Of a DNA stretch of 64,000 nt, positions 17,689-21,468 are shown in pieces. The position numbers and the translations under genes were made by a program. How positions within the stretch are numbered: the first letter of the stretch is position 1; each line of letters starts with the position of its first letter. Under the pieces are notes generated by a model that made no database searches, was not told the DNA's origin, and saw only the letters and a list, made by a program, of their open reading frames with translations. The DNA comes from Gaetbulibacter saemankumensis DSM 17032 (GTDB lineage: Bacteria; Bacteroidota; Bacteroidia; Flavobacteriales; Flavobacteriaceae), in the NCBI RefSeq assembly GCF_000425645.1, contig NZ_KE384430.1, positions 62,001 to 126,000 on the forward strand, given 5' to 3'.

Positions 17689-19374
17689 TTAAAATGCATC
17701 GGTTACACAGCCTTTTGAAGCTGATGCTACTGATTTCGCATATTTATATAAAATTCCTTTTTTGTGTTTTAATTCCGGAGCAACCCAAGCTGCTTTTCTT
17801 TCTGCTAATTCCTCCGCTGAAACCAGGAGATTAATAGAATTATCTTCTGCACTAATTCTAATGGTATCACCCGTTTTAATTAATCCAATTGCACCTCCGG
17901 TTTGTGCCTCAGGCGTTATATGCCCTACTACAAACCCATGTGTTCCACCAGAAAAACGACCATCGGTAATTAAAGCTACCGACTTTCCTAAACCTGCCCC
18001 CATAATTAATGACGTAGGTTTTAACATTTCTGGCATTCCAGGTCCTCCTTTTGGCCCTACATAACGAATAACAACCACATCTCCCTTTTCAACTTCACCA
18101 TTGGATATACCTGTATTAGCGGCTTGTTCTCCATCATACACAACTGCTTTTCCTTCAAAAACTAAACCCTCTTTTCCAGATATCTTAGCTACAGCACCTT
18201 CTTCCGCCAGGTTTCCATAAAGAATTTGTAAGTTACCTGAAGATTTTAAAGCCTTATCTGTTGGATAAATAACATCCTGCTCGTCTTCAAATTGAAGTGG
18301 CTCTACATCTTTTAAGTTTTCTGCTAAAGTTTTTCCAGTTACCGTCATACAGTCACCGTGCAAATACCCGTTATCCAGTAAATACTTCATTACAGCAGGT
18401 GTTCCTCCAATTCCATGAACATCTTCCATGAGGTATTTTCCACTCGGTTTTAAATCGGCAATTAAAGGTGTTCTGTCACTTACACGCTGAAAATCTTCTA
18501 AAGTAAATTCTATATCAGCCGCATGTGCAATAGCTAAAAAGTGCAGTACGGCATTGGTAGATCCGCCTAGAGCATTTACAAGAGCTATAGCATTTTCAAT
18601 TGATTTTTTAGAGATTATATCCAAAGGCTTTAAATCTAATTCTAATAAATTTTTAATAGCCACAGCTGTTCTTTCTGCTTCCGATAATTTATTTGGATTC
18701 TCAGCCGGGATAGACGAGTTATAAGGCAAAGCAAACCCCATACATTCTATAGCTGAAGCCATCGTATTAGCAGTATACATACCACCACAGGCACCAGCAC
18801 CTGGTATAGCACTTTTTATAATTTCACGATATTCTTCTTCATCAATCTCTCCGGCAACTTTCTGACCTAAAGCCTCGAATGCAGAAACAATGTTTAATTT
18901 TCTTCCTTTATAGTTTCCTGAAGCAATGGTTCCGCCATACATCATGATAGAAGGACGGTTTAATCTCAACATAGCAATTACTGCACCAGGCATATTTTTA
19001 TCACATCCCACCACTGAAATAAGAGCATCGTAACTTTGAGCATTCATAACAGTCTCAATAGAATCGGCAATTATATCCCGTGATGCTAAAGAATAATTCA
19101 TTCCTGAAGTCCCCATTGAAATACCATCACTAACACCAATTGTATTAAATCCAAGTCCTACCAGACCAGCAATTTTACATTCAATTTTAACCTCACTAGC
19201 CAAACCATTTAAATGCATATTACATGGGTTACCATCATAACCTGTGCTTGCAATACCCACTTGAGCCTTTTTCATATCTTCATCTGTCAATCCTACCGCA
19301 TAAAGCATGGCTTGAGATGCTGGTTGTGATTCATCTTGCGTTAATCTTTTACTATATTTATTAAGTTCCTCCAT
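17689..19374 (-). CDS. ilvD: Dihydroxy-acid dehydratase
   Basis: Iron-sulphur dehydratase giving 2-oxo-3-methylvalerate or 2-oxoisovalerate, precursors of Ile, Val and Leu. The protein is 561 aa. The three cluster cysteines are in [17 protein letters not shown] and [12 protein letters not shown], the last a family signature. It is the first structural gene of the operon ilvD-B-N-C-A. The leader upstream (to about 19748) carries a short Ile/Leu/Val-rich peptide gene and a terminator hairpin, so transcription is probably controlled by attenuation. Confidence 0.95.
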
Positions 19375-19617: not shown

Positions 19618-19644
19618 AAAAAAAGCCTTCCGTTTTAGGAAGGC
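19618..19644 (-). terminator. ilv attenuator (rho-independent terminator in the leader)
   Basis: On the minus strand GCCTTCC-taaaac-GGAAGGC is followed by seven T (19624-19618). It lies between the leader peptide gene and ilvD, about 240 bases before the ilvD ATG. The leader segment AGGATAGG (complement of 19678-19685), which spans the leader-peptide stop codon, can pair with CCTTCCT of the terminator's 5' arm with one bulged U. That would be the antiterminator. Confidence 0.8.
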
Positions 19645-19678
19645 CTTTTTATAATGTATTTTTATAAATATAGTCTCC

Positions 19679-19741
19679 CTATCCTTGGTCGATAATGACA
19701 AGAATAATAATAGAAACTGTATTTAAAATTTGCTTTTTCAT
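19679..19741 (-). CDS. ilv operon leader peptide, 20 aa
   Basis: A 20-codon ORF from ATG at 19741 to TAG at 19681-19679, encoding a peptide that contains SIIILVII. Seven consecutive codons are Ile, Ile, Ile, Leu, Val, Ile, Ile, and an eighth and ninth (Ile-Leu at residues 5-6) precede them. The end products of the operon are exactly these amino acids. A terminator hairpin lies 34 bases downstream and an antiterminator segment overlaps the stop codon. This is the classical layout of ribosome-mediated attenuation; stalling at Ile/Val/Leu codons would leave AGGATAGG free to block the terminator. The peptide has no expected function of its own. Confidence 0.8.
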   Translation of the reverse strand: MKKQILNTVSIIILVIIDQG

Positions 19742-19752
19742 CTGTGTTGGTA

Positions 19753-19783
19753 CAAATATTATTAAATAAAATTTAACATCCAA
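19753..19783 (-). promoter_or_regulatory. Candidate ilv operon promoter
   Basis: On the minus strand TTG (19783-19781) is followed 19 bases later by TAATATTTG, which is the Bacteroidota box TAnnTTTG with one extra base. Transcription would begin about 8 bases before the leader-peptide ATG. An alternative nearer ilvD (TATTTTCG at 19480-19473) would bypass the attenuator. Confidence 0.5.
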
Positions 19784-19832
19784 TTAATTATCTAAAAAAT
19801 AAAAAGTAGCATACAATTCTTTTAATTTTTAT

Positions 19833-19840
19833 TACTTTTG
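19833..19840 (+). promoter_or_regulatory. Candidate metK promoter -7 box
   Basis: TACTTTTG matches TAnnTTTG exactly and lies about 18 bases before the first arm of the riboswitch, placing the transcript start near 19845. No clear TTG box is seen 17-23 bases upstream. Confidence 0.5.
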
Positions 19841-19857
19841 CAGTCGCAAAAATTAAC

Positions 19858-19951
19858 AGAGGAAAGATTTGACTGATTGCAACCTCTTTATTAAATACCT
19901 TATAAGACAATAATTATCAGGTTTTTAATAAATAAAAATGCTAAAGGCAGT
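19858..19951 (+). ncRNA. SAM-II-like riboswitch upstream of metK, with inserted hairpin
   Basis: The layout of the SAM-II pseudoknot can be read. P1 is AGAGG (19858-19862) with CCTCT (19883-19887). The loop holds GATTT (19866-19870) and TTGCA (19877-19881). The 3' segment AATGCTAAAGG (19937-19947) is the conserved family tail. ACTG in the loop (19872-19875) pairs with CAGT (19948-19951), giving the pseudoknot helix P2. Between P1 and the 3' segment a hairpin is inserted (ATTAAATACCT with AGGTTTTTAAT, 10 of 11 pairs, 19890-19929). SAM-II senses S-adenosylmethionine and usually represses methionine/SAM genes; metK follows at 20002. Assignment by eye only. Confidence 0.75.
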
Positions 19952-19973
19952 GGAAACTTCCTTCGACGTTATC

Positions 19974-19983
19974 GTCAAATCTT
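19974..19983 (+). promoter_or_regulatory. Anti-aptamer strand in the metK leader
   Basis: GTCAAATCTT is perfectly complementary to AAGATTTGAC at 19864-19873, the loop of the riboswitch containing the conserved GATTT. The 10-bp helix cannot coexist with the pseudoknot and ends 18 bases before the metK ATG, so it is a candidate expression platform. A small hairpin GACG-ttat-CGTC (19965-19976) overlaps its first bases and competes with it. Confidence 0.55.
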
Positions 19984-20001
19984 GCAATAAAACATATAAT
20001 T

Positions 20002-21255
20002 ATGGCTTATTTATTTACTTCGGAAAGTGTTTCTGAAGGACACCCGGATAAAGTAGCAGATCAAATTAGTGATGCCTTAATCGACAACTTTTTAGCTTTC
20101 GATAAAGAATCGAAAGTAGCTTGTGAAACTCTTGTTACTACCGGACAAGTGATACTAGCAGGTGAAGTTAAATCTCACACCTATTTAGATGTTCAAAAAA
20201 TAGCAAGAGATACTATTAATAAAATTGGTTACACCAAGGGCGAATATATGTTCGACGGTAATTCATGTGGTGTACTTTCGGCAATTCATGAGCAGTCGGA
20301 CGATATTAATCGTGGTGTAGACAGAGGCTCTAAAGAAGAACAAGGTGCTGGAGACCAAGGAATGATGTTTGGTTATGCAACCAACGAAACGGAAAACTTT
20401 ATGCCTCTCGCTTTAGATTTATCACACTTACTTTTAATTGAATTGGCAGCATTACGTCGTGAAAATAATGAAATTACTTATTTAAGGCCGGACTCTAAAA
20501 GCCAGGTAACCATAGAATATAGCGATGATAATGTACCTCAACGCATCGACTCTATAGTTATCTCAACTCAGCACGACGATTTCGCTGATGAAAACACAAT
20601 GCTTAACAAAATTAGAGAGGATATTATTACTATATTGATTCCTCGTGTTATAGCCAAATTACCTGAGTCACTTCAAGTTTTATTTAACGACGACATTAAA
20701 TACCATATTAATCCAACCGGGAAATTTGTAATCGGAGGGCCTCATGGAGATACTGGATTAACAGGACGTAAAATTATTGTAGACACATACGGGGGCAAGG
20801 GAGCTCACGGTGGTGGTGCTTTTTCAGGAAAAGACCCAAGTAAAGTAGACCGAAGTGCTGCTTACGCTACAAGACATATTGCTAAAAACTTAGTAGCGGC
20901 AGGTGTTGCAGATGAAGTTTTAGTACAAGTAAGTTATGCAATTGGCGTAGTAGAACCTATGGGGATTTTTATAAATACTTATGGAACCTGTCCTTTTAAT
21001 ATGACCGATGGTGAAATTGCTCAAAAAGTATCTGAAATATTCGACATGCGACCATTCGCCATCGAAGAGCGTTTAAAATTAAGAGCGCCTATTTACAGTG
21101 AAACTGCTGCTTACGGACACATGGGTAGAGCCAATGAAATAGTAACAAAATCATTTAGTCAGCCAAACGGAGAAAGCATTACTCTAGATGTAGAATTATT
21201 TACATGGGAGAAACTAGATTATGTTGATAAAGTAAAAGCTGCATTTGACCTTTAA
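20002..21255 (+). CDS. metK: S-adenosylmethionine synthetase
   Basis: Cytosolic enzyme making SAM from methionine and ATP. The protein is 417 aa, slightly longer than the 385-400 usual. Family signatures are [19 protein letters not shown] (residues 7-25), the [12 protein letters not shown] hexapeptide region and the phosphate-binding [19 protein letters not shown]. The gene is alone on its transcript, with a SAM-II-like element before it and a strong terminator after it. It is divergent from the ilv operon. Confidence 0.96.

Positions 21256-21383: not shown

Positions 21384-21468
<85 letters not shown>

Follow-up and report, generated by a model that had tools for sequence, protein, structure and literature searches.

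SAM-II riboswitches were reported from the Bacteroides group in 2005 (PMC1273637), and a form with long loops from Bacteroidetes and marine metagenomes was described in 2010 by Weinberg et al. (PMC2864571). The corresponding model, RF01726, spans 60 positions and stops at the aptamer. The platforms described for the Alphaproteobacterial SAM-II (RF00521; Sargasso metX, Sinorhizobium metA/metZ) are occlusion of a Shine-Dalgarno (SD) sequence inside the aptamer or a terminator. Strand exchange is known from the purine switch yxjA (PMC9756952) and the ZTP switch (PMC10085676), in which the ligand decides during transcription between the aptamer and a competing helix, and which control terminators. 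The metK leader analyzed here shares the aptamer core, the expanded loop and a Bacteroidetes host with RF01726, and P1, the putative pseudoknot, the loop, the 3' strand and the association with met genes with the Alphaproteobacterial switches. However, its anti-loop strand and alternative hairpin fall outside the RF01726 model, and unlike the Alphaproteobacterial leaders it has neither of their platforms but a separate antisense strand about 18 nt 5' of the ATG. The choice between aptamer and competing helix would resemble that of yxjA and ZTP, although the invaded part would be the ligand-binding loop of the pseudoknot. The proposed strand-exchange platform for SAM-II is conserved and apparently undescribed so far: no earlier description was found in the open-licence papers searched.

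The DNA examined is a window of 64,000 nt from Gaetbulibacter saemankumensis DSM 17032 (NZ_KE384430.1, positions 62,001-126,000 of the forward strand; GCF_000425645.1), the one genome that represents its genus in our comparison collection. A first-pass annotation of the window had noted a SAM-II-like pattern before metK, and RF01726 indeed scores above its gathering cut-off 5' of this gene (Table 1). The gene product, methionine adenosyltransferase, belongs to the methionine/SAM functions that SAM-II membership leads one to expect. The P1 arms, the ACTG/CAGT pairing, the 3' strand and the 10-bp complement named in that annotation were all found where it had placed them. Both ways in which it had proposed to refute the assignment, a covariance-model search and the conservation of the motifs in related metK leaders, left it standing. 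By its sequence the aptamer is a known SAM-II of the long-loop type, one that would be expected to bind SAM.

Table 1. The metK leader of G. saemankumensis: features by window position
Feature	Position	Strand	Basis
Bacteroidota-type -7 promoter box TACTTTTG (TAnnTTTG)	19833..19840	+	motif counts in related leaders versus control ORFs
SAM-II aptamer (RF01726) including loop insert	19853..19954	+	cmscan 47.1 bits, gathering 44, E 7.5e-6 over whole window
P1 5' arm AGAGG	19858..19862	+	sequence; P1 pairs covary in relatives
Conserved aptamer loop AAGATTTGACTGATTGCAA: putative SAM-pocket strand, pseudoknot ACTG, anti-aptamer target	19864..19882	+	sequence, cmscan, relatives
P1 3' arm CCTCT	19883..19887	+	sequence
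Inserted AU-rich hairpin in SAM-II long loop	19888..19932	+	folding z -4.75
Aptamer 3' strand TGCTAAAGGCAGT; its CAGT pairs with loop ACTG (P2 pseudoknot)	19939..19951	+	sequence, cmscan
Alternative hairpin: 3'-strand AAGG, AGT pair with ACT, CCTT across C/T mismatch	19944..19964	+	free folds of relatives; covariation
Anti-aptamer extension; can continue pairing with GATTGC part of loop past bulged U	19966..19973	+	duplex/fold predictions only
Anti-aptamer strand GTCAAATCTT, exact complement of 19864-19873	19974..19983	+	sequence and comparison of relatives
AU-rich spacer, 18 nt, before start codon (translation initiation region)	19984..20001	+	sequence
metK, methionine adenosyltransferase	20002..21255	+	Pfam PF00438/PF02772/PF02773 and TIGR01034, 507.8 bits

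Among the relatives the top covarying pairs are those of P1 (p 0.002 on the MetK tree). The ACTG/CAGT match of the putative pseudoknot is present in the window and in 119 of 204 leaders. P2 matches of at least 3 nt occur in 179 of the 204, against 78 with shuffled tails; they are mostly invariant and hence show little covariation. The extra inserted hairpin claimed by the first-pass annotation does fold as a hairpin, and relatives' inserts of at least 26 nt (80 leaders) fold with a median z of -4.22, with insert sizes across the relatives ranging from a few nt or nearly none to more than 60 nt. The annotation had also read this SAM-II as a Bacteroidota variant with an expanded loop. Because RF01726 was described in 2010, under the very name "SAM-II long loop" (PMC2864571), and because the expanded loop is common across the family, the loop is no discovery, and the aptamer with its expanded loop offers nothing new. 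In fact, the SAM-II aptamer was found in 141 of 149 genomes of the Flavobacteriaceae, taken one per genus, and the count for the class Bacteroidia was 44 of 295 genomes. No second SAM-II was found in the genome of G. saemankumensis; the next-best match (26.6 bits) sits within an ffh-like reading frame and was taken as chance.

Of 204 leaders, 192 have the promoter motif TAnnTTTG at most 60 nt 5' of P1, at a median gap of 13 nt, compared with 12 of 204 for control ORF sequence. Between the upstream minus-strand gene (17689-19374) and the metK promoter there is a terminator-like hairpin, AAAAAGCCTTCCGTTTTAGGAAGGCCTTTTT (19620-19653), and shortly 3' of metK a tRNA-Tyr (GTA) is encoded on the opposite strand (21384-21468, minus). 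An ATG within the aptamer (AATGCTAAAGG) starts a short frame (19938-20036) that overlaps the start of metK. As the frame from the same ATG ends after 4-5 codons in many relatives (GTGTAA, CAGTAA), it is probably not conserved coding sequence.

The loop consists of AAGATTTGAC (19864-19873) followed by TGATTGCAA, and the first part has its exact complement downstream of the aptamer. When the downstream stretch was dinucleotide-shuffled 5000 times, 16 of the shuffles gave an exact complement of at least 10 nt and 31 an equally good duplex energy; a bulged U may extend the predicted helix to about 15 bp. The proposal that this complement competes with the aptamer gained support from the relatives, in which the complementarity is conserved far beyond chance. 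Over 121 related leaders the pairing between loop and downstream stretch has a median z of -2.63, with 66% at p<0.05, whereas the controls (reversed loop, loop versus upstream, P1 arm versus downstream) gave medians from -0.07 to +0.27 and 4-6% at p<0.05. Over all 204 leaders the median z was -2.41. Moreover, a leader pairs better with its own loop than with those of others (-2.0 kcal/mol, versus about -0.6 when loops are randomly reassigned among leaders). The helix does not end "just before" the ATG, as the first-pass annotation had it, but 18 nt 5' of this start codon at 20002, and the corresponding distance in the relatives' leaders has a median of 23 nt. These figures come from a leader set drawn mainly from one family, the Flavobacteriaceae; leaders from outside it show less anti-loop pairing (median z -1.42, 28% at p<0.05), and a significant element is missing in about 40% of all leaders. 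The pairing of the P1 5' arm with the downstream leader, which occurs in the window's minimum-energy fold, was at chance level in the relatives and was rejected.

Covariation points in the same direction. Alignment columns 7 and 74 (A-U 51, G-C 23) covary in register (p 0.002, simulation on the MetK protein tree), and the neighbouring registers (columns 70-73 and 75-80) carry no such signal. Column 7, just 5' of GATTTG, is the one freely varying position of the helix; most loop pairs cannot covary because the loop core is invariant, presumably owing to the need to bind SAM. A general scan ranked 7/74 high, and nothing but one P1 pair came near significance against its crude null; this simulated whole-alignment null was too broad to decide the matter, and targeted in-register tests were used in its place. 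The two classes of loop tell a similar story. GATTTG loops are accompanied by TCAAA[TA] in 94 of 143 leaders (shuffles 30) and AATTTG loops by GCAAT[CT] in 36 of 61 (shuffles 4). Where the loop is AATTTG, TCAAAT is mostly absent and GCAATC, complementary to the loop's other half, stands in its place; a handful of leaders (L040 and L139 among them) contain both. We read either half as serving one selected function, that of an antisense to the binding loop, and on this comparative evidence the 10-bp complement is real and selected. The same GTCAAATC anti-loop strand also follows a SAM-II (L017, G004 contig 13) located before a PLP enzyme of Cys/Met metabolism, similar to O-acetylhomoserine sulfhydrylase.

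A second competing element concerns the 3' strand of the aptamer, which can form an alternative hairpin with the form AAGG-C-AGT / ACT-T-CCTT here and CTAAAG-C-AGT / ACT-T-CTTTAG in other genera. As plain complementarity it is weaker (median z -0.84, versus -0.45 for the reversed control), so that its case rests on covariation: leaders with the additional G (AAAGG) have a C in the 3' arm in 45 of 49 cases, versus 12 of 59 among those that lack it (p 0.0005, MetK tree). A GACG/CGTC hairpin was also considered as a conserved platform and discarded, being confined to the AAAGG subset and invariant in its stem there.

The aptamer, the two competing helices and their conservation and covariation are established by this comparison. 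The reading that we favour, with a probability of roughly 0.7, joins the known long-loop aptamer to a strand-exchange expression platform, for which we infer SAM binding, timing, sign and output. Transcription would start shortly 5' of P1. If SAM is available while the aptamer is being made, the loop would be locked by P1, the pseudoknot and the ligand. In its absence GTCAAATCTT, once transcribed, would pair with the loop over 10 to about 15 bp and the ACTTCCTT arm would take the 3' strand, by which the aptamer would be dismantled and the leader structured from about -45 to -18. The gene metK would then be ON without SAM and OFF with it, a sign suggested by the logic of the pathway and by SAM-II elsewhere. 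In the window, before the pseudoknot and SAM are added, both of which the energy models leave out, the anti-loop fold is predicted to be more stable than the aptamer state by about 6-8 kcal/mol. The choice of fold is therefore likely to be made during transcription, with the aptamer formed first. The unconstrained minimum-energy fold of this leader is a different one, which also disrupts the aptamer and surpasses the anti-loop fold by about 2 kcal/mol. Of the "clear switch mechanism" announced by the first-pass annotation, the two mutually exclusive folds are supported; the clarity of the switching was put too strongly.

How a change of fold would be turned into expression is where the alternatives have to be weighed. 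In the mode described for SAM-II (PMC10907184) the pseudoknot with its bound SAM is itself what keeps the ribosome out, here with AAAGG as the SD sequence, and the downstream complement would stand outside the switch. In Sinorhizobium metA the riboswitch SD acts as far as 74 nt 5' of the start (PMC9373788), and within the same family one SAM-II, before a homocysteine methyltransferase gene (metH-like; L241, G055 contig 3), has its ATG 3 nt after the core GCTAAA, which looks like a direct-occlusion arrangement without space for an anti-loop platform. In the metK leader, however, AAAGG lies about 54 nt from the ATG and the aptamer ends 47 nt from it, which does not fit a functional SD in or next to the aptamer and near the start. 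Moreover, SD sequences are not recognised by Bacteroidia ribosomes (PMC9976891, PMC6847099), which makes classical SD occlusion unlikely, and direct occlusion would leave the conserved, covarying anti-loop strand without an explanation. We regard it as improbable for metK. A reversal of the sign seems equally improbable. In that case the anti-aptamer helix, ending at about -19, would hinder initiation, and SAM would free the leader and turn metK ON or derepress it. The free-state helix does end at the border of the stretch from -20 to +20, for which F. johnsoniae shows reduced structure (PMC6847099), and the region from -45 to -18 is predicted to be more open in the aptamer state; against this, the accessibility from -20 to +13 is the same in both states, product feedback predicts OFF with SAM, and in reporter tests elsewhere SAM-II behaves as an OFF switch (PMC9373788).

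In alpha- and beta-Proteobacteria SAM-II is commonly followed by a terminator (PMC2258182, PMC1273637), and an intrinsic terminator forming in the SAM state would give transcription attenuation. Yet a search of 19650-20150 for a G+C-rich hairpin with a U run returned 0 terminator-like sites, in the aptamer-state fold no hairpin precedes a U run, T6 runs occur in just 42 of 204 leaders, and T5 runs, most frequent in the AATTTG class, could pair there with the A-rich loop. Attenuation is accordingly extremely unlikely. Hardly better placed, and still very unlikely, is conservation of the downstream strand as a binding site for a protein or a small RNA, with the loop complementarity as a secondary matter: GTCAAATC is itself strongly conserved in one loop class, but the downstream element changes with the loop class, tracks its own loop, and recurs before the different gene in L017.

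Within the strand-exchange reading, the predicted consequence of SAM lies upstream of the start region. In 90 of 121 leaders the aptamer state is predicted to leave the stretch from -45 to -18 with less pairing, the unpaired fraction being 0.33 in the SAM-free fold and 0.49 in the aptamer state. No difference was predicted at the start codon, where accessibility from -20 to +13 averages 0.506 in both states over the relatives' leaders. Occlusion of the ribosome-binding site by the released strand was rejected, as its pairing to -17..+13 and to +1..+60 did not exceed the controls. Since accessibility is equal and the released strand has no target in the start region, the fold itself points to no output step. 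The output might consist in Rho gaining access to a leader rich in C and poor in G, or in changed ribosome loading or mRNA decay. The leader between the aptamer and -17 has 24% C and 11% G, a composition that, if exposed by SAM, would suit Rho; this argument is weak because a strand antisense to a G-rich loop will usually contain much C in any case. A SAM-gated strand exchange in most genera of the Flavobacteriaceae, independent of SD sequences and with SAM exposing the C-rich leader to Rho or to the initiation machinery, is put forward tentatively, as a possibility short of an even chance.

A few small-genome relatives have a second SAM-II-like aptamer (L260, G052 contig 2, 324-905; L261, G081 contig 28; L259, G004 contig 2). 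These second aptamers precede either queF (preQ1 synthase, TIGR03139), with a DUF6580-like membrane protein coming next in L260, or, in L259, DUF6580 (PF20221) directly. One would not expect to see a SAM-II core in front of a queuosine gene, and the arrangement may reflect a role of DUF6580 in the pathway or a changed ligand.

As far as we found in the literature, little has been described of how riboswitches operate in a phylum without SD usage. The leader described here supplies defined, conserved competing helices 5' of the SAM synthetase gene in most Flavobacteriaceae, and because their positions are exact the question can be tested with a few point mutants. Strand exchange may be how SAM-II switches where ribosomes ignore SD sequences.
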